Source of the DNA: Bacteroidota bacterium
GTDB taxonomy: Bacteria > Bacteroidota > Bacteroidia > Flavobacteriales > Schleiferiaceae
Direction of reading: 5' to 3'
NCBI GenBank assembly: GCA_024742495.1
Contig: JANSYJ010000002.1
Span: forward strand, 496,001 to 560,000
DNA: 64,000 bases
The notes below the pieces were generated by a model. It did not search any database and was not told the origin of the DNA. It saw only the letters and a list, made by a program, of their open reading frames with translations. Of the stretch, positions 6,730 to 43,320 are shown piece after piece (positions within the stretch are counted from its first letter, which is position 1; the number at the start of each line of letters is the position of its first letter). The position numbers and the translations under genes are program-made.

Positions 6730-7786
6730 TATATACCTCTAGGAATTTAACCGCAATGGCCTCATTGCTATGCTCATCCGCAGCTTGCTCTGCTATGGCA
6801 GATAAGTTATAGTCATTATAATTCCCTTTCATTTTTAAGATGGCCTTTACTAGGGCCGCTTCATCTCGCGAAGGAACCAGTATTCCATTGGCATCGGAAA
6901 GAATTTCCTTAATTCCACCAACATCACTACTTATAACTGGTCTCCCAATACTCAAAGCCTCGAGAATAACAACCGGTTGATTCTCAATAAAACTAAACAG
7001 TAGGAAAGCATCGCTGTCGCCGATCTGATCCGCAACCTCCCTGCGGTTCATGGCCTCCAATATTTCAATTTTTGTGGCGGGAATATTTCTTTCGGATATG
7101 GCCAAGCGCAAAGCGCCGAGATCGCCATCTCCACCTATCTTTAAAATGAAATTAGAATCTTGTTTGAGCAATTGCTCATAGGCATTTAAGATGCCCATAA
7201 TGTTTTTAGTTTCTTCCTGTAAAGAAGAAATATGCAGCAATTTAAATGGACCTGAATTAGTCGCTTTGGGCCGATAATGAAAGAGGGTAGGATCCACTAC
7301 ATTACCAATTGTTTTGAGATCTGACTCTAAGCCAAACTCTTGTAATGATTTCCCCAATTGCTCTGAAACCGGACAAACTACCTTGGCGCGATTTAAAATT
7401 TTAAGTGCCAGATATTGCGCTAGCCTGCTCCATTCGTGTCGGCGTTTTTTCTGATAACCAGAATAATGCTCGGTAATAATAAAAGGCAAAGATTTTAGAA
7501 ATCCCAAGAATACAATCCCAGAGGGCCAAGTAACGTGTAAATGCACCAAATTGAATTGATAGCCTTTGGCTTCAAGCAATCGATAAGCTTTTTTTAGGGC
7601 CCGGTAATGACTAATCATGGGCCATTTTTTTCGATAGAGGATTTGAATTTGAAAATAAGGGTACTCCTTGTAGTGCACCTCGTTTTTATGATGCTCAAAG
7701 GCCGAAATTACCACCACCTCCTGGAAAGGGTGAATAGCCTTAAGGTGTTCTTCCACAAAGTTGCCAAGGCGCGCATCCTTGGGCAT
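6713..7786 (-). CDS. Glycosyltransferase family 4 (GT-B fold); start codon uncertain
   Basis: This is a retaining GT-B glycosyltransferase with the family-4 C-terminal nucleotide-sugar signature ENQPVVILEALSIGRPVISSDVGGIKEIL and an N-terminal acceptor domain. The first ATG (7786) gives 357 residues starting MPKDARLGNF. The in-frame upstream codons back to a stop at 7843-7841 encode SVLHIASWFP, the usual N-terminal first strand and loop of this family, yet contain no ATG, GTG or TTG. An ATT at 7825-7823 is the best candidate for a non-standard start. The gene begins directly behind the tRNA-His terminator and converges on bshB1 with a 17-base overlap. Acceptor and sugar donor are unknown. Confidence 0.88.
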   Translation of the reverse strand: MPKDARLGNFVEEHLKAIHPFQEVVVISAFEHHKNEVHYKEYPYFQIQILYRKKWPMISHYRALKKAYRLLEAKGYQFNLVHLHVTWPSGIVFLGFLKSLPFIITEHYSGYQKKRRHEWSRLAQYLALKILNRAKVVCPVSEQLGKSLQEFGLESDLKTIGNVVDPTLFHYRPKATNSGPFKLLHISSLQEETKNIMGILNAYEQLLKQDSNFILKIGGDGDLGALRLAISERNIPATKIEILEAMNRREVADQIGDSDAFLLFSFIENQPVVILEALSIGRPVISSDVGGIKEILSDANGILVPSRDEAALVKAILKMKGNYNDYNLSAIAEQAADEHSNEAIAVKFLEVYTSVPL

Positions 7787-7843
7787 TGGGAACCAACTGG
7801 CAATATGTAAGACCGAAAGGCTAATGTTTGCTAATTTTTTCTA

Positions 7844-7882
7844 AAAATAAAAAAGGTCATTTGATAAAGCATCAAATGACCT
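7844..7882 (-). terminator. Terminator of tRNA-His
   Basis: On the minus strand a perfect 12-bp stem (AGGTCATTTGAT / ATCAAATGACCT) with a 5-base loop is followed by a T-rich tract. It starts about 5 bases after the tRNA 3' end. Confidence 0.9.
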
Positions 7883-7886
7883 CTTT

Positions 7887-7964
7887 TGGGGTGGCTAACC
7901 GGGGTCGAACCGGCGACCTCTGGTACCACAAACCAGCGCTCTAACCAGCTGAGCTATAGCCACC
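7887..7964 (-). tRNA. tRNA-His (anticodon GTG)
   Basis: On the minus strand the sequence folds into a cloverleaf: acceptor GTGGCTA/TAGCCAC, D-arm AGCTCAGCTGGTTAGAGC, anticodon arm CTGGT-TTGTGGT-ACCAG with anticodon GTG, and T-arm CCGGTTCGACCCCGG. The histidine-specific extra G at -1 (7964) faces C73 (7890), and the CCA end (7889-7887) is encoded. Confidence 0.97.
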
Positions 7965-7991
7965 ATTAATAGCGTTTTCGCTAAGGGTCGG

Positions 7992-8024
7992 CAAATGTAA
8001 TAATTGTCTCTAAATCATTCGCAA
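7992..8024 (-). promoter_or_regulatory. Promoter of tRNA-His (TTG - 22 nt - TACATTTG)
   Basis: On the minus strand TTG (8024-8022) precedes TACATTTG (7999-7992) by 22 bases, fitting the Bacteroidota -33/-7 pattern. The box ends 27 bases before the mature tRNA, leaving a short 5' leader that contains a small AGCG/CGCT hairpin. Confidence 0.65.
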
Positions 8025-8039
8025 TATTCTCGAAAAAAA

Positions 8040-8501
8040 TCAGGGTCTTTTACGGCGTCGTTTGCCAAGCATTTCCACCAGGTGTTTCCGGAACTCCATT
8101 TCGGCGCGGTAAAAGGTAGCGGCCTTGCGTTTGCCTACTGCCGCTTCGAATTTTGGATAGTAGTCGAGCTTTAGCTGAGCGATCATCTTTTGCTTGTTCA
8201 ACTCTTGGATGGTAATTTCCTTTAATTGACTGTCATCAAGTTTTTCCCATTGATCGCGAATTTCTTTGCGTCCCAAGTTCTCCGCTTTCAAATTAAAGAG
8301 CTCTTGTAATTTTTTGTTGTACTCATTGTAAACCGGCCAAAAGCGCTGTGCTTCTTCGGTACTTAAATCGAGTTCTTCGGTGAGGAACTTAGTTTTATAG
8401 GCCTCCACTTTCTTATAATCTTCGGGCCTGTGTTCTGGTTGGGCATCAATACTGCTGAAGCTAAAAAGTAAGATGCCGATGATTAAACTTATTTTATTCA
8501 T
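8040..8501 (-). CDS. Small exported Spy/CpxP-like protein
   Basis: This 153-residue protein has a signal peptide (about residues 1-20, IIGILLFSFSSIDAQ) and a helical, highly charged body. The segment LTEELDLSTEEAQRFWPVYNEYNKKLQEL resembles the LTxxQ-type helices of Spy/CpxP periplasmic chaperones and metal sensors. The C-terminus is very basic (KRRRKRP). It is the last gene of a trio with an ECF sigma factor and a membrane anti-sigma candidate, three bases after the latter. That placement suggests an envelope-stress sensing or feedback role. The functional reading is inference from family resemblance and context. Confidence 0.75.
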   Translation of the reverse strand: MNKISLIIGILLFSFSSIDAQPEHRPEDYKKVEAYKTKFLTEELDLSTEEAQRFWPVYNEYNKKLQELFNLKAENLGRKEIRDQWEKLDDSQLKEITIQELNKQKMIAQLKLDYYPKFEAAVGKRKAATFYRAEMEFRKHLVEMLGKRRRKRP

Positions 8502-8504
8502 GAT

Positions 8505-8906
8505 TTAGAGGTATTCAATAGTGTGATCATTTAGATAGTTTTCGATGGCACTCTCGTCTAGGATTTCCAATTCTTCAAAATCCGAGAGCTCATCGCTAAT
8601 TTCAAGGGGTATTTCTAAAAACACTTCTGGATGAAGGGCGTTTGGATCTTCATTTAAGAATTCAATAACCTGCTCTTCTTGTAAGTCGGAGAAGCTTATG
8701 TTAGCATCCCGATTTTGCTCATTTGGAAAAAGGAAGAAAGCCAAAATTAGGGCCGCCGCTGCCGACAGCCAGTACCAAGCCTTATTCGATTTAGGAGGCG
8801 AACTGAGTTCGGGTTTTTCCGATTCCACGGTTTGCGCTATTTCTTGTAGCGATTTCACCTTGGCTTGGAAATAGTCTTCCGGTATTTTAAATCCCTGTTC
8901 TTTCAT
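8505..8906 (-). CDS. Single-pass membrane protein, probable anti-sigma factor
   Basis: This 133-residue protein has a short cytoplasmic N-terminal half (KIPEDYFQAKVKSLQEI), one transmembrane helix at about residues 43-60 (AWYWLSAAAALILAFFLF) and an acidic extracytoplasmic tail rich in Glu and Asp. It begins 14 bases after an ECF sigma gene and ends 3 bases before the exported Spy-like gene. Size, topology and position fit an anti-sigma factor of the Bacteroidota type. No zinc-binding HxxxCxxC motif is present, so it would not be a ZAS-type regulator. Confidence 0.7.
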   Translation of the reverse strand: MKEQGFKIPEDYFQAKVKSLQEIAQTVESEKPELSSPPKSNKAWYWLSAAAALILAFFLFPNEQNRDANISFSDLQEEQVIEFLNEDPNALHPEVFLEIPLEISDELSDFEELEILDESAIENYLNDHTIEYL

Positions 8907-8920: not shown

Positions 8921-9454
8921 CTAATCAATATCCTTTAGGTTTAAACCCTGCTTAATTTTTTCATTGGCATGATGATAGGATGCCTTTAAAGCCCCAACGG
9001 ATGTTTCTAATAATTCACTCATCTCCTTAAAGGGCATTTTTTGAAAATACTTAAGCTTAAATACGGTTTGTTGTTTATCAGGTAGTTCAGCTACCGCTGC
9101 CATTAATTGTTTTAGGGCTTCGTCTCCATCGAAATAAGGATCGGCACTTAATTTAAAATCTAGCGGTCCCTCACTCAACTGAAAGCGCTTTTCTTTTTTC
9201 AGGTGGCCCAGTGCTTCATTGGTGGCAATCCGATACATCCAAGTGTAAAAAGCAGATTCACCGCGAAACTTTGCCAGGGATTTCCAAGTTCGGATAAATG
9301 TTTCTTGTAATACATCATCGGCCCAATCGTGTCGCAAAAGTATCGATCGGATATGCCAATAAAGCCTCTCGGTATAGCTTTCCACCAAGGCCGAAAACAG
9401 TGGTTCCAACCGACCCTCCTTTAAATCATCTTTCCAGCTTTGCGGCTCCTGCAT
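8921..9454 (-). CDS. ECF-type RNA polymerase sigma factor
   Basis: This 177-residue sigma-70 family member has region 2 with ADDVLQETFIRTWKSLAKF and the -10-binding segment FYTWMYRIATNEALGHLKK (about residues 40-82). A linker leads to region 4 with LPDKQQTVFKLKYFQKMPFKEMSELLETSVGALKASYHHA (about 120-160), the helix-turn-helix for the -35 element. It has no region 1 or 3, as expected for group 4. It heads a three-gene unit with a membrane anti-sigma candidate and an exported protein. It is divergent from the lipoprotein array starting at 9666, from which it is separated by 211 bases. Its regulon cannot be read from sequence. Confidence 0.93.
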   Translation of the reverse strand: MQEPQSWKDDLKEGRLEPLFSALVESYTERLYWHIRSILLRHDWADDVLQETFIRTWKSLAKFRGESAFYTWMYRIATNEALGHLKKEKRFQLSEGPLDFKLSADPYFDGDEALKQLMAAVAELPDKQQTVFKLKYFQKMPFKEMSELLETSVGALKASYHHANEKIKQGLNLKDID

Positions 9455-9626: not shown

Positions 9627-9634
9627 TACATTTG
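9627..9634 (+). promoter_or_regulatory. -7 box (TACATTTG) of lipoprotein 1
   Basis: TACATTTG matches the Bacteroidota TAnnTTTG consensus 31 bases before the ATG. A T-run around 9604-9608 sits where a -33 element would be, but without a clear TTG. Confidence 0.55.
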
Positions 9635-9665: not shown

Positions 9666-11018
9666 ATGAAAAAAATTATGTACTTCTTAGCAGCCGGCCT
9701 TTTCTTGGCAAGCTGTAGCCGCGACGTATCGGATGATACAACGCAAGGAGCCGTAGAAGGCCGTTCCAATGTTTTTCACTTTAGCCAAAGTGATCTAGAT
9801 GGAATGCTAACTCAAATGAACCAATCGTTCAATGTTTCTGCAAAAGCAGCTACGCAATTGAACTATACTTATCGCGCTTATGCTGAGCCCGTGACCATTC
9901 CAGGTCATACTATGGCTGCTTCCGCAATTTTCGCCATTGATGATATGGTATTTGTTACTTGGCATTCAAATGCTGGACCTGTTGTAGCTGGTGCTTCCAG
10001 TTCTTTGTCAGGTTCCATTTGTGCTTATAAATTAAGTGGCATCGGTCAGTACACCTTTACCGACCGAGTTGATTTCAGTGATGCTGATTACCACGAAGTA
10101 ACTGCTCATAGAAACAGCTTAGAAGGTAACATCGAAGTATTCGCCGTAGGTCAGCGTAATGTTGCTCAGAGTGGATACTTATTAAATGGTCACAATGGTG
10201 CTGTTGTAACTCGCATCGATTATGATTACATCAATGATGAGTTTAATGAGACTTCCGTTAAAGAATTGCCACTTCCTGGTGTTTCTGCTAACGATATCGT
10301 AGCAGGTGCTGCACACTTATACTGTGTTACTGGCGATGGCGAAGGTGGTTCTGATGGTGCGGTTTACGAATTCGACCGTTCTATGTCTCAAGTTAAAAAG
10401 GTAAACAACTCTATCAATGATGGTCAAGCCATTGTTGCAGATGAAACTACTCAAACTTCTAGCGCTTCTGATCTTTACATCTTAGATCGCGTAGGTGCCG
10501 ACCGCTACCGTATTCACTCTATGAGTACTAGCTTAGCTGGCGACAACACTACTTGGGCTAGCAGCGTAAACTTTGTTAGTGATTTATCTGGTGTAACTGC
10601 TATTGATGATGAGCGCGCCGATCTTACTTGGGCTCAGCACGCTGCTGGTGCAAGTGATCCTAGCGATTCTCTTATCGTGAGCTTTGGCTTTAACGGAATT
10701 TATCGTGCGGGAACTGGTGCTAACGGTATGACTAATGTTAAGAATATCGGACCATGTTTATCTACCGCTTATGACGCTAACCTTGCTGTATTGTATTATG
10801 CAGACGGTGATGATGGTGTAAGCGTATTAGCCATGGAAGATTTCGAAGGTGGTGCACTAATCAGTACCTATGACATTATTGGTCAGTTTGCTCCTCCAAC
10901 TGGTGGTATCTTCCCAGCGAGCTTCTTAATTAAAGAAATGACTATCTATCAAACTCGCCACATGGCATTAGCAGCAGCTGAGGCTGGTGTATATTTCATA
11001 CAACGCGATAAGATCTAA
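9666..11018 (+). CDS. Tandem-array lipoprotein 1 (unrecognised family)
   Basis: This 450-residue lipoprotein has a signal peptide and lipobox FLASC (Cys17), followed by SRD. It is the first of four paralogs in a row. Shared landmarks are LNYTYRAYAEPV (about 61-72), DDMVFVTWH, SGIGQYTFTDRVDF, EVFAVGQR, SGYLLNGHNGAVVTRIDYD, NDEF, KELPLPG, VLYYADGDDGVSVLAM, a YDIIGQFAPPT motif and a C-terminal GVYFIQRDK. Repeated short beta-strand blocks suggest a beta-propeller-like lipoprotein, by inference only. Codons are strongly biased toward GCT, GGT and CGT, unlike the housekeeping genes nearby, hinting at high expression. I do not recognise the family. It may be a surface or outer-membrane lipoprotein. 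A terminator follows. Confidence 0.85.
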   Translation: MKKIMYFLAAGLFLASCSRDVSDDTTQGAVEGRSNVFHFSQSDLDGMLTQMNQSFNVSAKAATQLNYTYRAYAEPVTIPGHTMAASAIFAIDDMVFVTWHSNAGPVVAGASSSLSGSICAYKLSGIGQYTFTDRVDFSDADYHEVTAHRNSLEGNIEVFAVGQRNVAQSGYLLNGHNGAVVTRIDYDYINDEFNETSVKELPLPGVSANDIVAGAAHLYCVTGDGEGGSDGAVYEFDRSMSQVKKVNNSINDGQAIVADETTQTSSASDLYILDRVGADRYRIHSMSTSLAGDNTTWASSVNFVSDLSGVTAIDDERADLTWAQHAAGASDPSDSLIVSFGFNGIYRAGTGANGMTNVKNIGPCLSTAYDANLAVLYYADGDDGVSVLAMEDFEGGALISTYDIIGQFAPPTGGIFPASFLIKEMTIYQTRHMALAAAEAGVYFIQRDKI

Positions 11019-11044
11019 GGATTTTCAAATAGATATTTTGATGA

Positions 11045-11069
11045 GGGCTTCCATATTGGAGGCCCTTTT
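11045..11069 (+). terminator. Terminator of lipoprotein 1
   Basis: An 8-bp stem (GGGCTTCC / GGAGGCCC, one G-T pair) with a 5-base loop and TTTT lies 26 bases after the stop. Confidence 0.75.
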
Positions 11070-11176
11070 CTATTAATTCACATCCAAAATTTAAATGTTC
11101 ATCATTAATTGCAAATTTATTTTGCTGATTAACAGGGTATTTATACTCAAGATGTTTTTTTAATCATATAAATTTT

Positions 11177-11184
11177 TACATTTG
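11177..11184 (+). promoter_or_regulatory. -7 box (TACATTTG) of lipoprotein 2
   Basis: The box is identical to the -7 box of lipoprotein 1 and lies 29 bases before the ATG at 11214. Confidence 0.55.
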
Positions 11185-11188
11185 TCAG

Positions 11189-11199
11189 ATCTATTACCC
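11189..11199 (+). promoter_or_regulatory. Shared 11-nt leader box (ATCTATTACCC), copy 2
   Basis: The 11 bases are identical to copy 1, here 4 bases after the -7 box and 14 bases before the ATG. Sequence around the box is not conserved, which argues for selection on the box itself. Confidence 0.55.
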
Positions 11200-11213
11200 A
11201 TTTAATACACACT

Positions 11214-12590
11214 ATGAAAAAAATTGCAACTCTTTTAAGTCTGGCTACAGTTTTAGTAGCTTGTAACCGGGAGTCGGATGATGTAGTAAACTCAGGTCCT
11301 CAGAACAGTGCGTCTGCAGGAGTTGTACACTACGAAGCTTCTGACCTTCCAGGTAGTCTTCAGAACATGAACGAATCGTTTAGCGTTTCTTCAAAAGCAG
11401 CTGGTCCACAACTTAACTATACTTACCGTGGTTATGCTAAGCCAGTTGATGCCAACGGTACTCCTTTTGATGCTGATGATTTAGCAGCTTCTGCTATCTT
11501 TTCAGTTGACGATGTAGTATTCGTATGCTGGCACACCAATGACAATGGTGGTGGTAACACTTTAGGTGCTTCTATTGCTGCTTACAAATTGTCAGGTATT
11601 GGTCAGTACACCTTTATGGATCGTGTGGATTACCCAAATCACGATTTCTTCAAGATGGCTGCTAGCAAAAACTCCCTTACTGGAAACATTGAGGTTATGG
11701 TAGCTGGTCAGCGTGACCCAGATAACTCAGGTTATTTATTAACTAATCACACTGGTGCTACTATTACTCGTATCGATTATGATTACATCAACGACGAGTT
11801 TTGGGAGCCTTCTTTCCAAGAATTACCTTTACCAGGTGAGGCTGCAACTGACGTAATTGCTTTAGCTGGTCAGTACTATGTACTTACTGGAAACGGAACT
11901 GGAAGTAACAGTGGTGGTCTTTTCGAAGTTGACCGCGCTCTTCAGTTTGTTAAGAAAGCAGATCAAGGAAACATTGAGGATGGTATCGCTCTTGCAGTAG
12001 ATCCAACTACAGTAACTCCTACTTCTGGTAACCTATATGTATTAGACCGTGCAGGTGTTGAGTACCGTGTACAAACTGCTGCTATCTCTGCAGTAGGCGC
12101 TACTTCTACTTTTACAAGTGTTAGCCCTTCTAGTGATAACAACGGTGGTTCTCCAATCACTCCAATCAACTTTGAGCGTGGTGATTTACAGTTTGCTCAA
12201 GGTCCTGGTTCTACTACTGATACTGACTCTTTATTAATCGCTGTTGGTAGCAACGGATTATTCGAGGCTAATTCAGGAGCTGGTCAGATTTCTCAAGCTG
12301 TTGATCAAGGTGCTTGTACTGGTATTGCTTTTGACGCAGGTATCGGTGTACTTTACTACTCAGCTGGTGAGTCCGGTATTTGGGTATTAGCTATGGGCGA
12401 GTACGCTAGCGCTAGCGGTCCATTAGTAAACCTTTACGATAATGTAGGTCGCTTTACTCCTCCAACTTCAGTTGGTGGTATTGCTGGTCCAATTCCATTT
12501 AATATCAAAGACGTTTCTGTATATCAAGGTCGCAATATTGCACTTTGCTCAGGAGATGGTGGTGTATTCTTCATCCAGAAGGATAAATAA
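11214..12590 (+). CDS. Tandem-array lipoprotein 2 (unrecognised family)
   Basis: This 458-residue paralog of the genes at 9666, 12718 and 14394 has lipobox VLVAC (Cys17) followed by NRE. It keeps the family landmarks LNYTYRGYAKPV, VVFVCWH, LSGIGQYTFMDRVDYP, VAGQRDPDNSGYLL, TITRIDYDYINDEFW, QELPLPG, GVLYYSAGESGIWVLAMGEY, YDNVGRFTPPT and GVFFIQKDK. Small insertions relative to lipoprotein 1 carry Gly/Asn-rich loops. This gene has the strongest bias to GCT, GGT and ACT codons in the array. It has its own promoter box and terminator, so it can be expressed independently of its neighbours. The biochemical role is unknown. Confidence 0.85.
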   Translation: MKKIATLLSLATVLVACNRESDDVVNSGPQNSASAGVVHYEASDLPGSLQNMNESFSVSSKAAGPQLNYTYRGYAKPVDANGTPFDADDLAASAIFSVDDVVFVCWHTNDNGGGNTLGASIAAYKLSGIGQYTFMDRVDYPNHDFFKMAASKNSLTGNIEVMVAGQRDPDNSGYLLTNHTGATITRIDYDYINDEFWEPSFQELPLPGEAATDVIALAGQYYVLTGNGTGSNSGGLFEVDRALQFVKKADQGNIEDGIALAVDPTTVTPTSGNLYVLDRAGVEYRVQTAAISAVGATSTFTSVSPSSDNNGGSPITPINFERGDLQFAQGPGSTTDTDSLLIAVGSNGLFEANSGAGQISQAVDQGACTGIAFDAGIGVLYYSAGESGIWVLAMGEYASASGPLVNLYDNVGRFTPPTSVGGIAGPIPFNIKDVSVYQGRNIALCSGDGGVFFIQKDK

Positions 12591-12612
12591 GAATAACCTT
12601 TGGATATAATTT

Positions 12613-12641
12613 AAAGCCCCGATTTTTATCGGGGCTTTTTT
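12613..12641 (+). terminator. Terminator of lipoprotein 2
   Basis: An 11-bp perfect stem (AAAGCCCCGAT / ATCGGGGCTTT) with a TTTT loop continues into a T-run. Confidence 0.92.
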
Positions 12642-12690
12642 CATTTTAAGGCAATAGAGGGGTTTATTGACTGTTTAAAATAGAAATGCT

Positions 12691-12698
12691 TATTTTTG
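12691..12698 (+). promoter_or_regulatory. -7 box (TATTTTTG) of lipoprotein 3
   Basis: TATTTTTG matches TAnnTTTG and lies 19 bases before the ATG at 12718, closer than in lipoproteins 1 and 2. Confidence 0.5.
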
Positions 12699-12701
12699 TA
12701 A

Positions 12702-12712
12702 ATCTATTACCC
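12702..12712 (+). promoter_or_regulatory. Shared 11-nt leader box (ATCTATTACCC), copy 3
   Basis: This is the third identical copy, 3 bases after the -7 box and only 5 bases before the ATG. Its spacing to the -7 box is better kept than its spacing to the start codon. Confidence 0.55.
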
Positions 12713-12717
12713 CCAAT

Positions 12718-14127
12718 ATGTTACATACTAAAAAATTCTTAGGCCTTATGGCCTGCTTAATCTGGCTCACGGCTTGTAACCGCGAATCGGAAAACAAGGG
12801 CACTACCGATCCTCCTATGGATCCTCCCAATGATGTAGTAATGAACGCTTATAGCTTTGGTGAACTCCAAGGCCAAATGATTGCCCTAAACGACACCTTT
12901 GTTCTTAATAATAAAACCGGATCGGTTCAATTGGAGTACCTCTATAGAGCCTATGCTGAGCCGGTAACTTTCCCTGCCTCAGGTGGAGGAACAACTACCT
13001 TATCTGCTACAGCCATATACGCGATAAATGATATGGTTTTTGTAACCTGGCATATACCTTCCGCTACCTATGGTGGCGCTATTTGTGCCTATAGGCAAAG
13101 CGGTATCGGTCGCTACACTTTTACGGATAGAGTAGATTTCCCAGAAGCAGATTACTTTGAATTAGCCGCTAGTGAGAATCCTGGTGATGGTTATTATGAA
13201 GTTTTCATGGTGGGCCAACGTGATCCCGATGCTTCTAACTATGTACTAGAGAACCATAGCGGTGCGGTAGTAACTCGTATAGATTACGATTTTATTAATG
13301 ACGAGTTTTGGGAAGCTAGTGCTAAGGAACTACCATTGCCTGGGCCAGCTGCTACCGATATAGTCGCCGCTGCCGCACATTACTTTGTTATAACTGGAGA
13401 TGGTTCCGGTGGCTCCATTGGCGGTTTATACCAAGTGGATAGAAACCTTGGCATGGTTGAAAAAGCAGATCAGGTTTCCATTGATGATGGCGTGGCCTTG
13501 ATTATTGATCCTACCAGTCAGAATGTAAATGCCGGAATTAATTCGGATGCTACTATATATGCTTTAGATCGTAGTGGTGGTAATTATCGCATAAGCCGTG
13601 CATCGGTAAGCTATGATTATACAACAGATCAAACCAACTTTGTGGGATTGAGCCCTTACTCGGATAATTCGGCAGGTCCTGTTATTTCACCGATCGACGA
13701 TGAGCGTGGCGATCTTACCTGGGCACAGGGAAGTGGAGCAGCAGTAAGCAAAACTGATTCCTTAATTATTGCTTCGGGTTATGAAGGGATTTTTGAGGCC
13801 GGTAGTACTATGGGCGGAAGCTTTAATACCGCTACTAATTTTGGTCCTTGCTTAGCAACTGAATTTGATCCTAGTTTAGGTGTGCTTTATTATGCAGATG
13901 CCAATGATGGGGTACGTGTAGTAGCTATGGGAGCTTATGCCAGTGGCAATACGCTTAATGAATATGATTTGATCGGGAACTTCGTGCCACCAACTGATAA
14001 TAATGCCGGAACAGTTTTACCAAGTACTTTTTACATTAAAGAGATTGCTTTGTATCGCTCGCGTAACATTGCCTTAGCAACAGGTGATGCTGGGGTTTAT
14101 TTCCTTCAAAAACTGAATGGGAATTAA
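12718..14127 (+). CDS. Tandem-array lipoprotein 3 (unrecognised family)
   Basis: This 469-residue paralog has a longer signal peptide ending WLTAC (Cys20), followed by NRE and a Pro-rich linker (DPPMDPPND). Family landmarks are present: LEYLYRAYAEPV, NDMVFVTWH, SGIGRYTFTDRVDFP, VGQRDPDASNYVL, GAVVTRIDYDFINDEFW, KELPLPGPAATDIV, GVLYYADANDGVRVVAM, YDLIGNFVPPT and GVYFLQK. Codon use is less biased than in copies 1, 2 and 4, so it may be expressed at a lower level or have had a different history. It has its own -7 box, leader box and terminator. Confidence 0.84.
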   Translation: MLHTKKFLGLMACLIWLTACNRESENKGTTDPPMDPPNDVVMNAYSFGELQGQMIALNDTFVLNNKTGSVQLEYLYRAYAEPVTFPASGGGTTTLSATAIYAINDMVFVTWHIPSATYGGAICAYRQSGIGRYTFTDRVDFPEADYFELAASENPGDGYYEVFMVGQRDPDASNYVLENHSGAVVTRIDYDFINDEFWEASAKELPLPGPAATDIVAAAAHYFVITGDGSGGSIGGLYQVDRNLGMVEKADQVSIDDGVALIIDPTSQNVNAGINSDATIYALDRSGGNYRISRASVSYDYTTDQTNFVGLSPYSDNSAGPVISPIDDERGDLTWAQGSGAAVSKTDSLIIASGYEGIFEAGSTMGGSFNTATNFGPCLATEFDPSLGVLYYADANDGVRVVAMGAYASGNTLNEYDLIGNFVPPTDNNAGTVLPSTFYIKEIALYRSRNIALATGDAGVYFLQKLNGN

Positions 14128-14152
14128 AGAAAATTGATTTGAACTAAAGAAG

Positions 14153-14182
14153 GCCATCTATTTATTAGGTGGCTTTTTTTTT
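14153..14182 (+). terminator. Terminator of lipoprotein 3
   Basis: A 7-bp stem (GCCATCT / AGGTGGC with one T-G pair) and a 7-base loop precede nine Ts. Confidence 0.8.
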
Positions 14183-14393
14183 GACTTTTGACTTATAGTC
14201 AAAGGGCTTTTAGCTATCTTTAAAAAGAGCGCATTGTCATTCATCGAAGAAAATCGACCGTTAATCTATACATCGATTTATAAGAACCGCTCATCTAAAC
14301 AAAAGCCTGAAGGCAGCATATAATATAGACATTTGAGTTCAGCTTAAGATAAGGGTATAGTAGGGATGCATACCAAAATCAAAAAGTTGAACG

Positions 14394-15782
14394 ATGAAAA
14401 AGTTAGTTTATTTATTTGCAGCCGGAGCTTTTTTAGCCAGTTGTAATCGCGATGTATCCTCTTTGCAGGATCCTAGTGAAGAAGGCCGTATTGCGGTAAT
14501 TCCCACTAGTGAACTCAATAGCCAAATTAAAACTATGGGCGAAAGTTTTACCGTTAATGGTAAGGCCGCAGCACATACGCTTATTTATACTTACACCAAT
14601 TTTGCTGAAGCACCAGCTAACCTCGCATACACCGAGGAACTTGCAGGTGGATTAACAACCGGTACTTCCGATTTAGCTCAGGCTACTTCTGTTACCGCTT
14701 CTGGTGATATGGTTTTTGTAACCTGGCACTTAGAAGGTGCGAAATACGGAGGTTCAATTTCCGCTTATAAACTTAGTGGTGGTACTTATCACTACACTTC
14801 TCGTATCGACTTTGATGATACCGATTGGCATGAGGCCGAAGTGAATCGTAATAACCTTACCGGAAATTATGAAATCTTCGCTGTAGGTCAAAGATCTCCA
14901 GGATCTAGTGGTTACCTTTTAAATGGCCATAGCGGTGCAGTAGTAGGTAAAGTACTATACGACTATATTAACGACGAGTTCCGCACGTACGGTTCTTATA
15001 AGGAGCTTCCTTTACCAGGATACGGTGCCAATGCAATTATTACATCTGCTGGTAAGTATTATATCCTTACTGGAAACGGTCGCGGATCAAATACCAGAGA
15101 TGCTCAAAGCGGTTTATATGTAACCGATTATAACTTGACTAATGTTTCTGAATCAATGACTATTACCGATGGTATTTTTATTGAAGCGGATCCATTCAAT
15201 AGCACAACTTCAAATGTAGATTACGCTTTATTTGACCGTACTGCTTCTGATCGTGTGCAAATTCGTAGAGGAATGAATACCTCACAGACGGTTTCTAATG
15301 CAATGCCTTTCACCATTGACTATATCAACGGAAGTGGAATTCCATCTCTAGAGCGTGAGCGTGGTGGCATGGCCTTTATCCCTTATACCTATGCCGGTTC
15401 TACGGTAACCAGTACGGAGTATCTTTTAGCTCTTGCTGAGGAAGGTTTATACGGACAGTATTCTGGACATATTCGCAATTCGGTTAACTATTGTTTAGCT
15501 GTAACCCACGATGCTTCTGCTAAGGTAATTTATGCAGCTGCCGGTGATGGTGGACTTAAAATTATAGCTGGTCACGGTTATAATGGCGGAGTACTAGTGA
15601 ATACCTTCGATTTAGTAGGACACTTTGTTCCTCCAACCAATGCCTTTATCGCTGGTTTTAATGTGAAAGATGTATCGGTGTACTTTTCTGACTATATCGC
15701 TCTTGCGGTAGGTGGTACAGATGGTAGTGGAGCCAATGCTCGTAAAGGTGGCGTTTACTTTGTACGCAAAACAGGTTGCTAA
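14394..15782 (+). CDS. Tandem-array lipoprotein 4 (divergent paralog)
   Basis: This 462-residue protein has lipobox FLASC (Cys17) followed by NRD, and a signal peptide close to that of lipoprotein 1 (MKK..YLFAAGAFLASC). It is the most divergent copy. It keeps GDMVFVTWH, YTSRIDFDD, FAVGQRSPGSSGYLLNGHSGAVVGKV, YINDEF, KELPLPGYGAN, KVIYAAAGDGGLKI, FDLVGHFVPPTNA, FNVKDVSVY and GVYFVRK, but replaces the DRVDF and VLYYADG forms. The C-terminus has an extra loop (GTDGSGANARKG). It lacks the ATCTATTACCC leader box of the other three and sits behind a longer 266-base spacer, so it is probably regulated differently. The function is unknown. Confidence 0.83.
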   Translation: MKKLVYLFAAGAFLASCNRDVSSLQDPSEEGRIAVIPTSELNSQIKTMGESFTVNGKAAAHTLIYTYTNFAEAPANLAYTEELAGGLTTGTSDLAQATSVTASGDMVFVTWHLEGAKYGGSISAYKLSGGTYHYTSRIDFDDTDWHEAEVNRNNLTGNYEIFAVGQRSPGSSGYLLNGHSGAVVGKVLYDYINDEFRTYGSYKELPLPGYGANAIITSAGKYYILTGNGRGSNTRDAQSGLYVTDYNLTNVSESMTITDGIFIEADPFNSTTSNVDYALFDRTASDRVQIRRGMNTSQTVSNAMPFTIDYINGSGIPSLERERGGMAFIPYTYAGSTVTSTEYLLALAEEGLYGQYSGHIRNSVNYCLAVTHDASAKVIYAAAGDGGLKIIAGHGYNGGVLVNTFDLVGHFVPPTNAFIAGFNVKDVSVYFSDYIALAVGGTDGSGANARKGGVYFVRKTGC

Positions 15783-15838: not shown

Positions 15839-15870
15839 AGCGCGTGGACTATGGTTCACGCGCTTTTTTT
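15839..15870 (+). terminator. Terminator of lipoprotein 4
   Basis: An 8-bp perfect GC-rich stem (AGCGCGTG / CACGCGCT) with a 10-base loop precedes seven Ts, 56 bases after the stop. Confidence 0.88.
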
Positions 15871-16629: not shown

Positions 16630-17925
16630 TTATAAGCGATAGCCTATGGCTAAGCCAATGGTAATAATACCGAGGTAATCGTTTTGCTGACTAAAGTTTT
16701 CTTGACGGGTAAGAATAAGATCGAATCGCGTATAAAGCTTAGGGTTGGCTAATTTTTGGTAACCGATTCCAAAGTATTGACTGGTAAGGCTTACACTTTC
16801 TCCAGGAGATAGGGCGCCAGCAACCGAGAGAATACGTTCGTCTGGCACTAGTCCATATCCTGCTGTTAATTGCAGAAAATCACCTTTTCCGCTAAAAAAC
16901 TTTCGGTATAAGAAGTTAAAGGTGGTTCCAAAACCATATTCATCTACAATAAAGAAGGGGCGGAAACTGGCGTATTCATTTCCCCAATAGTAACCAATGG
17001 AACCCGTGTACATGGTAACTTGGTTAATGAGGAAATCCAAATAACGCACACCAATAGAACCCTCAAAATTGCTTTCACCGATTTTAGAATAGTATTCCAA
17101 TCCAAATCTAAAACTTGGAAATATTTGAGAAGGGGAGTAACCTAAATTAACGTAGCCATAAGAATTTCGACTAAAGCGCGGGTAAATGTCAATTTCGCCC
17201 TGAACCCCAAAACTGGTAAAGTCTTGGTTGCGATCGCCATAATTTAAGCGACCGATAAGGGCGCCAATTTTAGTTTGGCGACCATATTGTACATAACCGA
17301 AATACCAAGGACGATAGCCTTTGGTGAAATAGTCGATGGTGCCACCAACCACCAATCCATCTACAATGAGTTGGTTTAATAAAAAGGTTTTAAGCTTTTC
17401 CAGCTCATTGTTTTCGGGGTACTTTACCAGGGCTGAATCTACCGTGGTATAAGCATCTCGCAGGGCATTGCTATTTACTTGGGCCTGCGCCTTATTAACG
17501 TAGAAAAACTCGTTGCGATCGGGGAAGCGTTTGATGCCATCCTCGCAGTACATTATACATATTGGAAAGGACTTTGCAAAGCGCTCATTTTGCACCCGCA
17601 GCGCATAAGGCTCATAAGCATTGGTATCTTCAACAATAAGGTTGCGAATAAGATTTCGGGCATTATCATGCTTGCTATCCCAAACATAGGTACGCGCCTT
17701 AAAAAGGCGGTATTGGTAATTCCCTGGATCATCCAATAATAAAAGGTCTAATACCTTTCGGGAGGTTCCATAATCTCCACCATAAGCCAATTCACGAGCC
17801 TGGGAAAAGGCCGAATCAGGATCGGCGGAAATCATAACCACCGCTGCCTTACCTGTGTCTTGCGTCTGTGCAAAAGCGCCGAAGGAAAAGGCGAACATGA
17901 TTAAAAGAAGACTATATTTTTTCAT
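16630..17925 (-). CDS. YaiO-like outer-membrane beta-barrel protein with N-terminal TPR region
   Basis: This 431-residue exported protein has a signal peptide cleaved after about residue 19 (FGAFAQ). A TPR-like helical section follows (about 35-195: SAFSQARELAYGGDYGTSRKVLDLLL, DAYTTVDSALVKYPENNELEKLK). From about residue 210 the sequence alternates aromatic strands typical of a small outer-membrane barrel (WYFGYVQYGRQTKIGALIGRLNYG and so on) and ends YRL. This layout matches the YaiO family, which in Bacteroidota often sits near surface-glycan genes. The protein's molecular role is not established. It appears monocistronic, with a strong terminator. Confidence 0.82.
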   Translation of the reverse strand: MKKYSLLLIMFAFSFGAFAQTQDTGKAAVVMISADPDSAFSQARELAYGGDYGTSRKVLDLLLLDDPGNYQYRLFKARTYVWDSKHDNARNLIRNLIVEDTNAYEPYALRVQNERFAKSFPICIMYCEDGIKRFPDRNEFFYVNKAQAQVNSNALRDAYTTVDSALVKYPENNELEKLKTFLLNQLIVDGLVVGGTIDYFTKGYRPWYFGYVQYGRQTKIGALIGRLNYGDRNQDFTSFGVQGEIDIYPRFSRNSYGYVNLGYSPSQIFPSFRFGLEYYSKIGESNFEGSIGVRYLDFLINQVTMYTGSIGYYWGNEYASFRPFFIVDEYGFGTTFNFLYRKFFSGKGDFLQLTAGYGLVPDERILSVAGALSPGESVSLTSQYFGIGYQKLANPKLYTRFDLILTRQENFSQQNDYLGIITIGLAIGYRL

Positions 17926-24912: not shown

Positions 24913-27457
24913 ACCGCACATAACCAGGGTTTCCGGGATGTACGAAGATTACTTCCTGGACTATGCCAGTTATGTGATCTTGGAAAGAGCAGTGCCAACA
25001 TTGGGCGACGGTTTGAAGCCGGTTCAAAGGCGGATACTACACGCCCTAAAGGAAATGGATGATGGTCGCTACCACAAAGTAGCGAATGTGATTGGTCAAA
25101 CCATGAAGTACCATCCACATGGCGACGCTTCCATTGGCGATGCCTTGGTGCAATTAGGTCAAAAAGATTTATTGATTGATGCCCAGGGAAACTGGGGTAA
25201 TGTATTAACAGGAGATAGCGCAGCAGCGCCTCGTTATATCGAAGCTCGCTTATCGAAATTTGCCCTTGAGGTGGCCTTTAGTCCTAAAGTTACCGCTTGG
25301 CAAAGTAGTTATGATGGACGAGGTAAGGAACCGGTAGAGTTTCCAGTAAAGTTTCCACTATTATTGGCGCAGGGCGTAGAAGGTATTGCGGTTGGACTTT
25401 CCACCAAAATAATGCCTCACAATTTTAATGAGCTTATTGACGCCTCCATCAAGGTTTTAAAAGGACAGAAGTTTGATCTTTTGCCAGATTTCCCCACCGG
25501 AGGGATTGCCGATTTCTCAAATTATAATGAAGGCCTTCGCGGCTCAAGAATAAGGGTTAGAGCTCGAATAAATATCCGCGATAAGAAGACCTTAGTAATT
25601 GAGGAAATTCCTTTTAGCACCACCACCGGCTCCTTGATTGATTCGGTATTAAAGGCCAATGATAAGGGGAAGATCAAGATTCGTAAGATAGAGGATAATA
25701 CCGCCGAACATGTAGAGATCTTGGTGCATCTTCCCACGGGGATTTCGCCCGATAAAATGATCGATGCCCTATATGCCTTTACGGATTGTGAGGTTTCCGT
25801 AGCGCCGCTTTGTTGCGTTATTGAAAACGATGCTCCCCAGTTTCTTTCCATAAAAGAGATACTGCGACGCAATGTGCAAAACACGGTTGATGTGTTGCAA
25901 GCCGAGCTGGAATGGGAACTAAATGAATTACAGGAAAAATGGCACTTCGCCTCGCTAGAGCGCATCTTTATTGAAGAAAAGATTTATCGCGACATAGAAG
26001 AAGCGGAAACCTGGGAGGCGGTAATTGGGAATATTCGCGCCGGATTAGAACCCCATATTGGGCATCTACTGCGTCCGGTGACCGATGATGATATTACTCG
26101 CTTGACGGAAATCAGGATAAAGCGCATTTCCAAATTTGATAAGGATAAGGCCGATGCCAATATTGCCGCTCTTGAAGGCAATATTGAAGAAGTGAAGAAT
26201 CACCTCTCCAATCTGGTAAGCTACGCCATTAACTGGTTTAAGAATATTAAAAACAAGTACGGCAAAGGACGGGATCGCAAGACTGAAATTCGTGCTTTTG
26301 AAGATATTGTGGCCACCAAGGTGGCTTTGGCCAATGTAAAATTATACGCCAATTTAGAGGAGGGCTTCATCGGCACCAGCCTGAAGAAGGAGCAATTTAT
26401 TTGCGATTGCTCAGATATTGATGATATCATAGTCTTCCTTAAGAACGGTCAGTTTATGGTTACCAAAGTGGACCAGAAAACTTATATCGGTAAAGATATT
26501 TTACACGTAGCGGTTTGGAAGAAAGGGGATAAGCGCACTACCTACAATATGATTTATCGCGATGGTAAAAAAGGGGCGGCTTATATGAAGCGCTTCCAAG
26601 TAACCGCCATAACACGCGATAAACCTTATGACCTAACTATAGGAACCGAAGGAACAGAGGTGCTGCATTTTACCGCCAACCCTAATGGCGAGGCGGAAAA
26701 GGTGATGATTTACCTCCGTGCCTTGCAGCGTTTGAAAAAACTGAAATTCGAAATTGATTTTGCCGAATTAGCGATAAAAGGTCGGGCATCGAAAGGTAAT
26801 ACGGTTACTAAGTATCCTATTAAGAAAGTTGAAGTTCGCGAAGAAGGCGTTTCTACCTTGGAAGCCCGAAAAATTTGGTTTGATGAAACTGTTCATCGAC
26901 TCAATGCAGAAGGAAGAGGACGATTATTGGGCAGTTTTAAAGGCGACGACAAAATTTTGGAGGTTTCTAAAAGTGGTCATTATCGCTTAACCGGCTACGA
27001 TTTGAGCATTCACTTTGATGACGATTGGGAAATCATCCAAAAGTATGATGCGGAGCGCGCTATAGCGGCGGTATATTTTGATGGCGATAAACAAAAGCAC
27101 TTTGTTAAGCGCTTTATACCCGAGGTATTTGATCGCAAGGAACTCTTTATTTCGGAGCACCCTGATTCCGTTTTGGATTTTGTCAGTTATGATGAACAAC
27201 CTCGTATTGAAATAGTATACCGAAAGATTAAAGGCAAGCAGAAGGAGAATGAAGAGCTCCACATTAACGAATTTATTGCGGTTAAGGGCGAAAAAGCCCA
27301 AGGCAACCAACTTAGCCGCGATGAGGTTCGTAAGATAAATGCCCTCGAGCCTTTGGAGATTCCGGAGGAAACAGAGGAACAAAACAATGAAAATGAAAAC
27401 AGCGATAACTCTCTTAGCCAAGAAGACGACGGCCAAATTACTTTGGGTCTCGATTAG
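24854..27457 (+). CDS. parC: DNA topoisomerase IV subunit A (GyrA/ParC family)
   Basis: This is the DNA-cleaving subunit of the type IIA topoisomerase, 867 residues long. An acidic Glu/Gln-rich N-terminal tail precedes the winged-helix domain starting about residue 28 (DYASYVILERAVPTLGDGLKPVQRRIL). The catalytic tyrosine is Tyr128 in AAPRYIEARLSKFA. The tower, coiled-coil and a C-terminal beta-pinwheel region follow, then an acidic tail. Both ends overlap neighbours: 59 bases with the small membrane-protein gene and about 71 bases with the choice-of-anchor-B gene. Confidence 0.93.
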   Translation: MAEESQDPEENNQEQKQELKPHITRVSGMYEDYFLDYASYVILERAVPTLGDGLKPVQRRILHALKEMDDGRYHKVANVIGQTMKYHPHGDASIGDALVQLGQKDLLIDAQGNWGNVLTGDSAAAPRYIEARLSKFALEVAFSPKVTAWQSSYDGRGKEPVEFPVKFPLLLAQGVEGIAVGLSTKIMPHNFNELIDASIKVLKGQKFDLLPDFPTGGIADFSNYNEGLRGSRIRVRARINIRDKKTLVIEEIPFSTTTGSLIDSVLKANDKGKIKIRKIEDNTAEHVEILVHLPTGISPDKMIDALYAFTDCEVSVAPLCCVIENDAPQFLSIKEILRRNVQNTVDVLQAELEWELNELQEKWHFASLERIFIEEKIYRDIEEAETWEAVIGNIRAGLEPHIGHLLRPVTDDDITRLTEIRIKRISKFDKDKADANIAALEGNIEEVKNHLSNLVSYAINWFKNIKNKYGKGRDRKTEIRAFEDIVATKVALANVKLYANLEEGFIGTSLKKEQFICDCSDIDDIIVFLKNGQFMVTKVDQKTYIGKDILHVAVWKKGDKRTTYNMIYRDGKKGAAYMKRFQVTAITRDKPYDLTIGTEGTEVLHFTANPNGEAEKVMIYLRALQRLKKLKFEIDFAELAIKGRASKGNTVTKYPIKKVEVREEGVSTLEARKIWFDETVHRLNAEGRGRLLGSFKGDDKILEVSKSGHYRLTGYDLSIHFDDDWEIIQKYDAERAIAAVYFDGDKQKHFVKRFIPEVFDRKELFISEHPDSVLDFVSYDEQPRIEIVYRKIKGKQKENEELHINEFIAVKGEKAQGNQLSRDEVRKINALEPLEIPEETEEQNNENENSDNSLSQEDDGQITLGLD

Positions 27458-29039
27458 CATCTTAGCTTGCCTAAGCTTAGAAGGCCAAGCAAGCTTGGAC
27501 ATGACCGAATTAGGTCGCTTAGGCTACAACCAAAGTATAAACGACGTTTGGGGCTGGGTAGATACTGCTAATAATAAGGAGTATGCCCTAGTAGGGGTGC
27601 AAAACGGTTTATCGGTTGTGGATGTTACCCTTCCTAGTAATCCGGTACAAGTGAAGTTTTTCGCAGGCGCCAGCTCTATTTGGCGCGATATGAAGACTTA
27701 TGGTAATTACGCCTACACCGTTCACGATGTTTATAATGGTACCAGCAATGGTATTTTCATTGTAGATATGACCACCATCACTAATACCTTCCCAACTACA
27801 TATACCCGTCAGCCTCAGGTTTCAATCGGAGGTAGTTCGGTTACTATGGATCGCGCACACAATATTTACATTGATGAGGAAAAGGCGCAACTTTATCTCT
27901 TTGGTTCCAATGTAGGCGTGGGCGGCGCTTTAATATTTGATCTCGCTACCGATCCTACAAATCCAAGCCTGTTGGGAGTTTTTAACGATTATTATTTACA
28001 CGATGGCGTTTCCCGAGGCGATACCATGTGGGGCGCAGCGGTGACTAGTGGTTTCTTTTTACCAATCGATATCAGCACGCCTTCTACGCCAATGGTTATG
28101 GCGACCAAGAATACCCCTTTCAACTTCACCCACAATATTTGGTTTAGCGACGATAACAGTCGGGTGTTTACCACCGATGAAAAGAAATCGGCCTATATCG
28201 CCGAATATGATGTGAGCGACTTGAATAATATTGATGAACTCGATAGAATCCGCACCAGCTTTGGTACCGATGTAGTTCCTCATAATGTTCATTTTCACAA
28301 TAACTTCCTGGTTAATTCATACTATACTTCTGGAGTACAAATTTTAGATGTTAGTCAACCCGGACTAATGATTGAAACTGGTTATTATGATACCTCACTC
28401 GATACGGGAGATGGCTTTAATGGATGTTGGGGCGCTTATCCTTATCTCCCTAGTGGAAATATTTTGGCTGCCGACCGTCAAAGAGGACTTTTCGTATTAA
28501 GCAGCGATTATACCAGAGGATGTTATTTATATGTATCGGTGATTGATTCCTTGAATGGTCAAAATTTAATCAATGCCAATGTTGAAGTGCAAAGTACCGC
28601 CATGGTAGGAAGCTCTAATATCTTTGGGAACTTTAAAGATGGACAAGCCGCCGCGGGTACTTATCAGATGATTGTAAGTAAGCCGGGCTATATTTCAGAT
28701 ACCCTTAGCATTAATATGGCTTATGGGATAGAAACCAATAAGCAAGTGGCCTTGATGCCAGCGGTAGTAAGCTTAAACTCCTTCGGGCCACTTTTAAATG
28801 TAGAGCCTTATCCCAATCCGAGTTCTTTAAACGATGGACTGATTAAATTAAGCAATTGGTCCGATGATTTAATTGGGAGTGAGTATCAATTATTAGAATT
28901 GAACGGACGAGTTGTAGGCAAAGGAAGCTTAGAGGAAGGTATTATCAAGCTCGAAGATCAATCGATTAATAGAGGTTCTTATATACTTCGATTGAGTTCT
29001 CGCAACTTTCTTCGTACTTATCCTATAATCCTTCAATAA
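27387..29039 (+). CDS. T9SS-sorted choice-of-anchor B family protein (LVIVD-type repeats)
   Basis: This secreted 550-residue protein has a signal peptide (KLLWVSISILACLSLEGQA) and repeats of the LVIVD/choice-of-anchor-B type (YALVGVQNGLSVVDVTLPSNP, GVQILDVSQPG) that form a propeller-like body (about 45-380). A carboxypeptidase-regulatory-like Ig domain follows (about 390-470). The C-terminal T9SS type A sorting domain is EPYPNPSS...GSYILRL (about 475-550), so it should be exported and anchored or released by type IX secretion. I place the start at 27387 (alternative 27393) because the signal peptide begins there. This puts its first 65-71 bases inside parC. There is no later start that keeps the signal peptide. 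Confidence 0.88.
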   Translation: MKMKTAITLLAKKTTAKLLWVSISILACLSLEGQASLDMTELGRLGYNQSINDVWGWVDTANNKEYALVGVQNGLSVVDVTLPSNPVQVKFFAGASSIWRDMKTYGNYAYTVHDVYNGTSNGIFIVDMTTITNTFPTTYTRQPQVSIGGSSVTMDRAHNIYIDEEKAQLYLFGSNVGVGGALIFDLATDPTNPSLLGVFNDYYLHDGVSRGDTMWGAAVTSGFFLPIDISTPSTPMVMATKNTPFNFTHNIWFSDDNSRVFTTDEKKSAYIAEYDVSDLNNIDELDRIRTSFGTDVVPHNVHFHNNFLVNSYYTSGVQILDVSQPGLMIETGYYDTSLDTGDGFNGCWGAYPYLPSGNILAADRQRGLFVLSSDYTRGCYLYVSVIDSLNGQNLINANVEVQSTAMVGSSNIFGNFKDGQAAAGTYQMIVSKPGYISDTLSINMAYGIETNKQVALMPAVVSLNSFGPLLNVEPYPNPSSLNDGLIKLSNWSDDLIGSEYQLLELNGRVVGKGSLEEGIIKLEDQSINRGSYILRLSSRNFLRTYPIILQ

Positions 29040-31188: not shown

Positions 31189-31195
31189 TCGCACT

Positions 31196-32509: not shown

Positions 32510-32577
32510 CTGACTTAGTTCGGCTTGTTCTTTCCCATTCTGGGAGTAAATACTAAATTTGGGAGAAGCGTCAGACT

Positions 32578-33930: not shown

Positions 33931-33941
33931 ATTAGAAAGTC

Positions 33942-34280
33942 ATGTCAGATAAAGTGTATAACCTGGCCCAATTAGAAGAACAAGGTGGCGGCGATGCAGA
34001 GTTCGTGTCAATGATGGTTGACACCTTCCTAGAGCATACACCGGGGCAGTTGGAGGAAATGAAAAGCGCGCATAGTAGTGGCGATTCCGCAACACTTGGC
34101 GCTATTGCACATAAAATTAAGCCCAATGTTGATATGTTTGGCATTGATGCTATTACCCAAGATATTAGGGATTTAGAGCAAATGGGGAAAAACGGGATTA
34201 TCAATGCTGAAACCCAAGAGAAAATGCAAAAGGTAGAAGCCGAACTGACCATAGCCTTTGAACAACTTAAGCAACACTAA
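33942..34280 (+). CDS. Histidine phosphotransfer (Hpt) domain protein
   Basis: This 112-residue all-helical single-domain Hpt protein has the phospho-accepting His57 in AIAHKIKPNVDMFGI, the canonical AHxLK-like motif. It would shuttle phosphate between a hybrid kinase and receiver domains. It follows the sigma-54 regulator by 11 bases, and its stop overlaps the start of the lone receiver gene by one base. Its partners could be the adjacent receivers and a kinase encoded elsewhere. Confidence 0.88.
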   Translation: MSDKVYNLAQLEEQGGGDAEFVSMMVDTFLEHTPGQLEEMKSAHSSGDSATLGAIAHKIKPNVDMFGIDAITQDIRDLEQMGKNGIINAETQEKMQKVEAELTIAFEQLKQH

Positions 34281-36554: not shown

Positions 36555-36556
36555 GA

Positions 36557-38800: not shown

Positions 38801-38817
38801 GGCTGCTTCTTATCCTC

Positions 38818-40275: not shown

Positions 40276-40285
40276 GCTTAGGGAA

Positions 40286-41194: not shown

Positions 41195-41210
41195 AAATCC
41201 GAGCATTACA

Positions 41211-41218: not shown

Positions 41219-41284
41219 ATTTTCTCTATTGCTTGTATCAGGGCTTAAACAAATTTATTTTTACGCAATAGCTAACAAGCAACC

Positions 41285-43310: not shown

Positions 43311-43320
43311 ATGTCATTAA

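Follow-up and report, generated by a model that had tools for sequence, protein, structure and literature searches.

Proteins of the LVIVD and choice-of-anchor B families are, taken as a whole, surface or secreted propeller-type proteins, and YncE is a bacterial seven-bladed propeller without a lipoprotein anchor. The LVIVD repeat proteins (PF08309) are described in PMC2447325, and in PMC6143338 BtuG, a partner of BtuB, is presented as a vitamin B12-binding surface lipoprotein with a seven-bladed propeller fold. Here we analyzed a tandem array of lipoprotein genes at positions 9,666 to 15,782 of a 64,000-nucleotide stretch of a Schleiferiaceae genome (GCA_024742495.1, contig JANSYJ010000002.1); this whole stretch is called the window. 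The array of four related lipoprotein genes is confirmed as real. In our best explanation, to which we give a probability of about one half, these genes encode surface propeller scaffolds that arose by tandem duplication and bind a glycan. Computation established the family and its gene order, the predicted fold, the old age of the duplication, the purifying selection and the conservation of the locus. The four genes are:

9666..11018, + strand, copy 1, lipoprotein of 450 residues, lipobox Cys17, predicted seven-bladed beta-propeller
11214..12590, + strand, copy 2, lipoprotein of 458 residues, lipobox Cys17
12718..14127, + strand, copy 3, lipoprotein of 469 residues, lipobox Cys20
14394..15782, + strand, copy 4, lipoprotein of 462 residues, lipobox Cys17, predicted seven-bladed beta-propeller

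The first-pass annotation had described four paralogous lipoproteins of 450–469 residues lying head to tail, and both the open reading frames and a full-length alignment bear this out: copies 2, 3 and 4 are 47, 49 and 41% identical to copy 1, with 98 invariant columns, which rules out chance likeness. In all four copies [SN]-R-[DE] comes directly after the lipobox Cys, as had been noted. The proposed chain of shared motifs stands with small exceptions: GQR, INDEF and PPT are present in all copies, while VFVTWH reads VFVCWH, KELPLPG reads QELPLPG and the C-terminal GVYF reads GVFF in copy 2, and RIDYD reads KVLYD in copy 4, the largest exception. A signal peptide with a lipobox Cys, the mark of a bacterial lipoprotein, was recognized by sequence pattern in all 27 family members compared; the LPAM_1 model scored 10.5 bits on copy 1 (cut-off 20).

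Structures were modeled with AlphaFold2 for copies 1 and 4, copies 2 and 3 being represented in the alignment. Both models are mostly confident and all-beta, with a predicted local distance difference test score (pLDDT) of 83.0 and a predicted template modeling score (pTM) of 0.85 for copy 1, and 79.9 and 0.83, respectively, for copy 4. VIA superimposed copy 1 on the RACK1-type chain 3frx_D (Z 31.2, 2.7 Å over 296 residues) and copy 4 on the COPB2 chain 8d30_B (Z 30.3, 2.3 Å over 285 residues); among the matches shown, Z was 28.9–31.2 and the alignments spanned approximately residue 60 to the C-terminus. The matched chains (RACK1, beta'-COP, EED and others, with 3frx_D and 8d30_B among them) we take to be seven-bladed WD40 propellers. 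Foldseek's own alignments were poorer (template modeling score, TM-score, of 0.2–0.5 by query length). By these models copies 1 and 4 are seven-bladed beta-propellers, and the models, with Z of about 30 to WD40 proteins, agree with the propeller reading of the first-pass annotation. A common fold demonstrates no function.

The 45 most conserved positions are spread unevenly (29 in residues 60–250 and 15 in residues 251–450). No face is clearly more conserved in its loops, residues 102–115 being among the least conserved, and the idea of a binding face therefore rests on strand ends and strand order. Following the WD40 convention for strand order and face, the strand ends at residues 99–101, 162–164 and 222 of copy 1 and the strand start at residue 141 would be placed on one face. 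A blade ending of the form small-x-G-x-x-G-[LVI]-x-[VIF] occurs 1, 2, 1 and 1 times in the last blades of copies 1–4, a count made without a chance control.

None of the four copies received an assignment in Pfam, NCBIfam or PHROGs, the sole PHROGs match having E 0.41; for none of them was there a match to PF08309 at E up to 1 or to TIGR04312 (curated cut-off 100 bits). An enzyme family was rejected, as no Pfam or NCBIfam model matched above its cut-off. The only sequence match to a solved structure, 2lio, was weak (E 9e-4, profile positions 64–156) and was set aside. A profile of the four copies matched 10 of 149 genomes, the own genome included; matches were strong in six genomes of one genus (G000–G005), and G024, of another genus, had a single copy at E 2e-34. 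Matches confined to the N-terminal part (G009, G027 and G043) were not counted. Searches with a wider profile, A3, covered 395 genomes of the order, with matches in 16, and 395 of the phylum, with matches in 10; the own genome is counted in each, and, with only four candidates scored per genome, the copy numbers they give are lower bounds. Of the A3 matches, those restricted to the N-terminal part (G059, G065, G131 and G175) were dropped, as were short ones in apparently other proteins (G068, G251, G375 and G637, with the proteins of L058, L061, L063 and L080 read).

Distant relatives connect the array to a much larger set of lipoproteins. Profile A6, built from nine of them, recovers all four array copies from the own genome (E 1.3e-21 to 2.9e-13), and hhalign matched the array family to nine distant lipoproteins at 99.7% (E 6e-26). 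One relative, L059, picked up by A3 with an E of 1.7e-5 for a single genome among 395, is part of the alignment matched by hhalign at 99.7% and lies above the PF08309 cut-off (37.3 bits vs. 20.2, E 1.7e-9). In ten relatives scanned with the Pfam LVIVD model, L059 passes, L046, L073 and L074 are under the cut-off, and six have no match. Three residues, the lipid Cys, A85 and G344 (copy 1 numbering), do not vary among the 38 sequences compared; every one of these has W or Y at position 99, and 21 have H and 11 have N at position 100. A distant paralogue of 680 residues is encoded elsewhere in the genome (L044: 5060–7102). The family had been called unrecognized, which holds for the libraries searched; it is not isolated, being homologous to a wide Bacteroidota lipoprotein set that includes the LVIVD-positive L059. 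It is a divergent, unnamed branch of Bacteroidota LVIVD-like propeller lipoproteins and not a new fold: fold and broad kind are already known, and the branch is unnamed in these libraries.

A phage or plasmid origin was also considered and rejected: none of 98 pattern-matching stretches of viral contigs was confirmed by tblastn, and copy 1 had no plasmid match (viral contigs and plasmids were covered, a phage collection was not searched). Structural matches in a viral library had low TM-scores and mixed names, and were discarded.

In the tree, window copies 1–4 cluster with their positional counterparts in G001, G003 and G005, copy 4 also with that of G002. G004 shares only a deeper split: two of its copies, 1 and 4, go with the copy-4 side (support 93/92), and the other two, 2 and 3, stand next to the opposite side (96/92). 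The array has five copies in G003, where the extra one is a more recent duplicate (c2/c2b), and four in G000, G001, G004 and G005. From this grouping of positions, at least two array genes are probably older than the genus, and the four-gene set predates the split of G000, G001, G003 and G005. The ratio of non-synonymous to synonymous substitution rates (dN/dS) between G001 and G005 is 0.013, 0.031, 0.035 and 0.012 for copies 1–4; the values for copy 4 of G000 vs. G002, the G003 duplicate and copy 1 vs. G003 are 0.059, 0.104 and 0.137, respectively. These seven computable pairs thus span 0.012–0.137, with dS above 1 in four of them and two further pairs saturated. The array is old, with positions orthologous among four genomes of the genus and kept under purifying selection.

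Two further sequences resembling array genes were seen. In L016, a metagenome-assembled genome of Balneolaceae, an array-type gene nests with copy 2 on a 3.5 kb contig with a DDE transposase alongside; it may reflect recent transfer or a misbinned contig and was not counted as evidence of spread. In L017, positions 13–1257 form a frame whose start looks, by eye, like an acyl-CoA synthetase and whose remainder is the second half of copy 3; the repetitive array was probably misassembled here.

The lipoprotein export signal C-X-K-(D/E)2-X, with a published minimum of two acids, is described in the consulted part of PMC5080379. In the array family, the lipobox Cys is followed by [NST]-[RK] in 27 of 27 members and D or E stands at +4 in 22 of 27; [RK] belonged to the pattern by which the Cys was picked, but when the first Cys was taken instead, 24 of the 25 sequences read yielded the same residue. 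We propose that one gene at this locus was amplified in tandem early in the genus and that the copies were then maintained as four distinct proteins with their own transcription signals. The C-x-[RK]-[DE] start, in its resemblance to the export signal, suggests that these proteins would be anchored in the outer membrane and exported to the surface, where the propellers may act as rigid, outward-facing binding scaffolds. The ligand site would lie on the face of blades 2–4, near the conserved W-H, D, GQR, H-x-GA, ExPLP and TG. Ligand-binding paralogs, a role also named in the first-pass annotation, are our best guess. The ligand is probably a glycan, in the boldest version possibly exopolysaccharide made by the cell itself, and each copy would be tuned to one form or condition. 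The preference for a glycan comes from the distant relatives, which sit in PgaC-like exopolysaccharide operons and occur in all 13 genomes of family f38 with TackOD1 above the cut-off.

The surroundings of 16 distant loci were read, with one contig too short to tell. In five of the 16 (L123, L124, L129, L133 and L135) the lipoprotein lies among exopolysaccharide-type genes. The GT2 glycosyltransferase of L124 is above the Pfam cut-off; it and the GT2 of L135 are nearest to PgaC/IcaA, far under the cut-off of that model, and the GT2 of L129 is 52% identical to that of L124. TackOD1 is present in L124, L129 and L133, and in L123 by coordinates; L129 has a UDP-sugar dehydrogenase, and L124 and L135 have HlyD-like adaptors under the cut-offs. 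The remaining genes of these five rows were recognized by eye only. As an observation in its own right, TackOD1 near GT2 and HlyD-like genes in L123, L124, L129 and L133 apparently marks an unnamed Bacteroidota exopolysaccharide system.

In f38, 22 of 92 genomes have the propeller and 13 of 92 have TackOD1 above the cut-off, and all 13 carry the propeller (hypergeometric P 2e-10, not corrected for kinship, the test including the three genomes that suggested it, G731, G480 and G476). Five A6 seed sequences come from f38. One further genome, G724, has TackOD1 under the cut-off and no propeller. The two genes lie within 5 kb of each other in nine of the 13 genomes. In a broad tree the array clade falls in the half that holds eight of 11 operon-linked sequences. 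A YaiO match was found in four of 13 other genomes searched; in G007 and G020 the YaiO homologue (28–29% identical) lies within a response regulator–YaiO–HEAT–GT2 row, in G014 it does not, and the G006 contig is too short for its gene row to be read. We put forward, tentatively and with the odds clearly against it, a wider claim: the phylum-wide propeller family may be the outer-surface partner of exopolysaccharide synthesis, capturing or organizing the polymer alongside a PgaC-like GT2, an HlyD-like adaptor, a TackOD1 response regulator and a YaiO-type barrel. In the window genus it would have left the operon and expanded into four specialized polymer-binding proteins.

Several observations speak against a surface-exposed, glycan-binding role. 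The export signal is imperfect in the four window copies, which have no second acid at +5, and five of the 27 family members have no acid at +4. Ten of the 16 distant loci are without an exopolysaccharide-type operon. The propeller gene is elsewhere than TackOD1 in four of the 13 f38 genomes with TackOD1, nine of the 22 f38 propeller genomes have no TackOD1 above the cut-off, and G095 has TackOD1 without a propeller match. In the own genus TackOD1 matches are under the cut-off or absent, and the best match of the own genome to the operon GT2 is 34% identical over part of its length. As the window genus is without the operon, the exopolysaccharide link is indirect. A long branch (1.39) separates the array clade from the operon-linked sequences. 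TackOD1 proteins are also known from another context, the thaumarchaeal pilus loci treated in PMC5847659, whose TackOD1 section, the part consulted, calls their function obscure and mentions neither propellers nor exopolysaccharides. Neither propeller lipoproteins combined with exopolysaccharide nor YaiO combined with glycosyltransferase yielded a relevant title in a few narrow literature searches.

Four neighbouring genes define the locus, those of the sigma-factor operon encoding an extracytoplasmic function (ECF) sigma factor and two small proteins:

8040..8501, - strand, small secreted-type protein of the ECF operon, no family match
8505..8906, - strand, small protein with one hydrophobic segment (by eye) in anti-sigma position, a putative role suggested by position; no family match
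8921..9454, - strand, ECF sigma factor, divergent neighbour with conserved synteny
16630..17925, - strand, YaiO outer-membrane beta-barrel protein, convergent neighbour with conserved synteny

The array is flanked by the ECF-sigma operon and the YaiO gene in G000, G001, G003, G004 and G005; in G002 its pieces are on broken contigs with matching flanks, and the single copy of G024, in another genus, occupies the same locus between these genes. Weak TPR matches were seen in the window YaiO protein, an outer-membrane barrel. For G006, the seventh genome of the genus, loss of the array was considered but not shown, because the 3,075-base contig ends where the array should begin, 412 bases from the YaiO gene.

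Other genes of the window lie farther off. At 27387–29036, about 12 kb from the array, a choice-of-anchor B/LVIVD propeller protein is encoded (TIGR04312 210.8 bits, PF08309 1.7e-8), whose type IX secretion system (T9SS) sorting tail scores just under the cut-off. A genome-wide PF08309 scan of the own genome missed this protein, which is above the cut-off by hmmscan, and the negative result of that scan was not relied on. A Wzx/Wzy-type polysaccharide cluster follows at 29082–45327, at least 13 kb from the array, and includes a sulfotransferase, a Wzx-like flippase, response regulators, a sugar transferase, an outer-membrane efflux-type protein, a chain-length determinant-like protein, a Wzy-like polymerase and several glycosyltransferases (some recognized by eye). 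Two adjoining giant secreted-type proteins with similar N-termini are encoded at 51868–58272 and 58392–64000, the former having MAM, fn3 and PKD domains and a T9SS sorting tail.

Candidate transcription signals accompany the individual copies:

9627..9634, + strand, candidate -7 box of copy 1, TACATTTG, TAnnTTTG match
11043..11067, + strand, terminator-like hairpin 3' of copy 1
11177..11184, + strand, candidate -7 box of copy 2, TACATTTG, TAnnTTTG match
12613..12638, + strand, terminator-like hairpin 3' of copy 2
12691..12698, + strand, candidate -7 box of copy 3, TATTTTTG, TAnnTTTG match
14146..14180, + strand, terminator-like hairpin 3' of copy 3
15839..15864, + strand, terminator-like hairpin 3' of copy 4

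A terminator-like hairpin follows each of the four stop codons, as the first-pass annotation had it, and the region has 15 such hairpins vs. a shuffle mean of 6.0 (standard deviation 2.5). TAnnTTTG, presumably the Bacteroidota -7 box, lies upstream of copies 1, 2 and 3, with its end 31, 29 and 19 nt from the respective start codons; no exact match was found upstream of copy 4, and the motif is not enriched across the window (46 matches vs. 68 expected). The four hairpins and three candidate boxes are signs of the separate transcription units that had been suggested. The unequal codon bias was seen as well: among codons for Phe, Tyr, His, Asn and Asp, those ending in C make up 47/111, 56/106, 28/118 and 35/112 in copies 1–4, compared among themselves.

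The main rival to glycan-binding scaffolds, itself unlikely, is nutrient capture of the BtuG kind, in which a surface propeller would bind a small ligand and hand it to a TonB-dependent receptor encoded elsewhere. BtuG sets the precedent that the same architecture can serve as a high-affinity capture device (PMC6143338, in the part consulted), and in G003 the counterpart of the 680-residue paralogue lies directly downstream of a TonB-dependent receptor gene (L045: 4224–6659, then 6787–8820). However, that receptor is absent at the same locus in G000, a Pfam scan of nine window neighbours (4.5–20.4 kb) found no TonB-dependent receptor, and the flanks in four further genomes of the genus consist largely of the same neighbours (no gene-by-gene scan). 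Slightly less probable still is that the copies are envelope maintenance factors of the neighbouring ECF-sigma regulon, working as periplasm-facing assembly scaffolds, as BamB does for barrels, or as stress sensors. The ECF-sigma, putative anti-sigma and small secreted-type genes do adjoin the arrays of five genomes (G000, G001, G003, G004 and G005) and the single copy of G024, but neighbourhood alone is no proof of regulation, the copies have their own terminators and, for three of four, candidate promoters, and their start sequence resembles surface export rather than periplasmic retention.

The first-pass annotation had also suggested surface variants, which would be interchangeable antigens or adhesins under diversifying selection. 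A tandem array, unequal copy number (five in G003, four elsewhere) and the more recent c2/c2b duplicate would fit such proteins. The selection data largely refute them and make them very improbable, dN/dS being 0.012–0.035 between G001 and G005 for all four copies. The orthologous positions between species, the purifying selection and the single copy at the same locus in another genus together argue against variable antigens and for four specialized proteins. Of the first-pass interpretation, then, the paralogous lipoproteins, the signs of separate units, the lack of a named family in the libraries searched and the propeller are supported; the surface variants are not, and the family is not isolated.

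From this analysis, unnamed Bacteroidota lipoproteins gain a predicted fold, a boundary for their family and a role that can be tested, and the co-occurrence with TackOD1 gives a concrete context both for TackOD1 and for the distant propeller relatives. If polymer binding were true, such propellers would be an outer-surface component of synthase-type exopolysaccharide systems; to our knowledge, within a narrow search of the literature, no component of such kind is known for these systems. Among described proteins, the LVIVD (PF08309) and choice-of-anchor B (TIGR04312) families are linked to the array by L059, which passes PF08309, and by the blade ending in the last blades, whereas none of the four array proteins matches either model and W-H, GQR, INDEF and ELPLPG in blades 2–4 mark the array family. 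YncE is among the structural matches of copy 4 (3vgz and 3vh0, Z 29.5 and 29.6), but the array copies have no sequence assignment and do have a lipid anchor. With BtuG the array shares the seven-bladed propeller, here predicted, and the nature of a Bacteroidota surface lipoprotein, likewise predicted; it differs in that the BtuG entry 3DSM is not among its sequence matches to solved structures and that no TonB-dependent receptor is encoded in the scanned neighbours. 3DSM is likewise missing from the fold-search matches shown, which speaks neither for nor against a relationship. The propeller lipoproteins linked to GT2 or TackOD1 (L123, L124, L129, L133 and L135) are homologous to the array by profile, with the lipid Cys, A85 and G344 in common, but they are single genes in gene rows, whereas the window genus has its array without TackOD1 above the cut-off or a close GT2.

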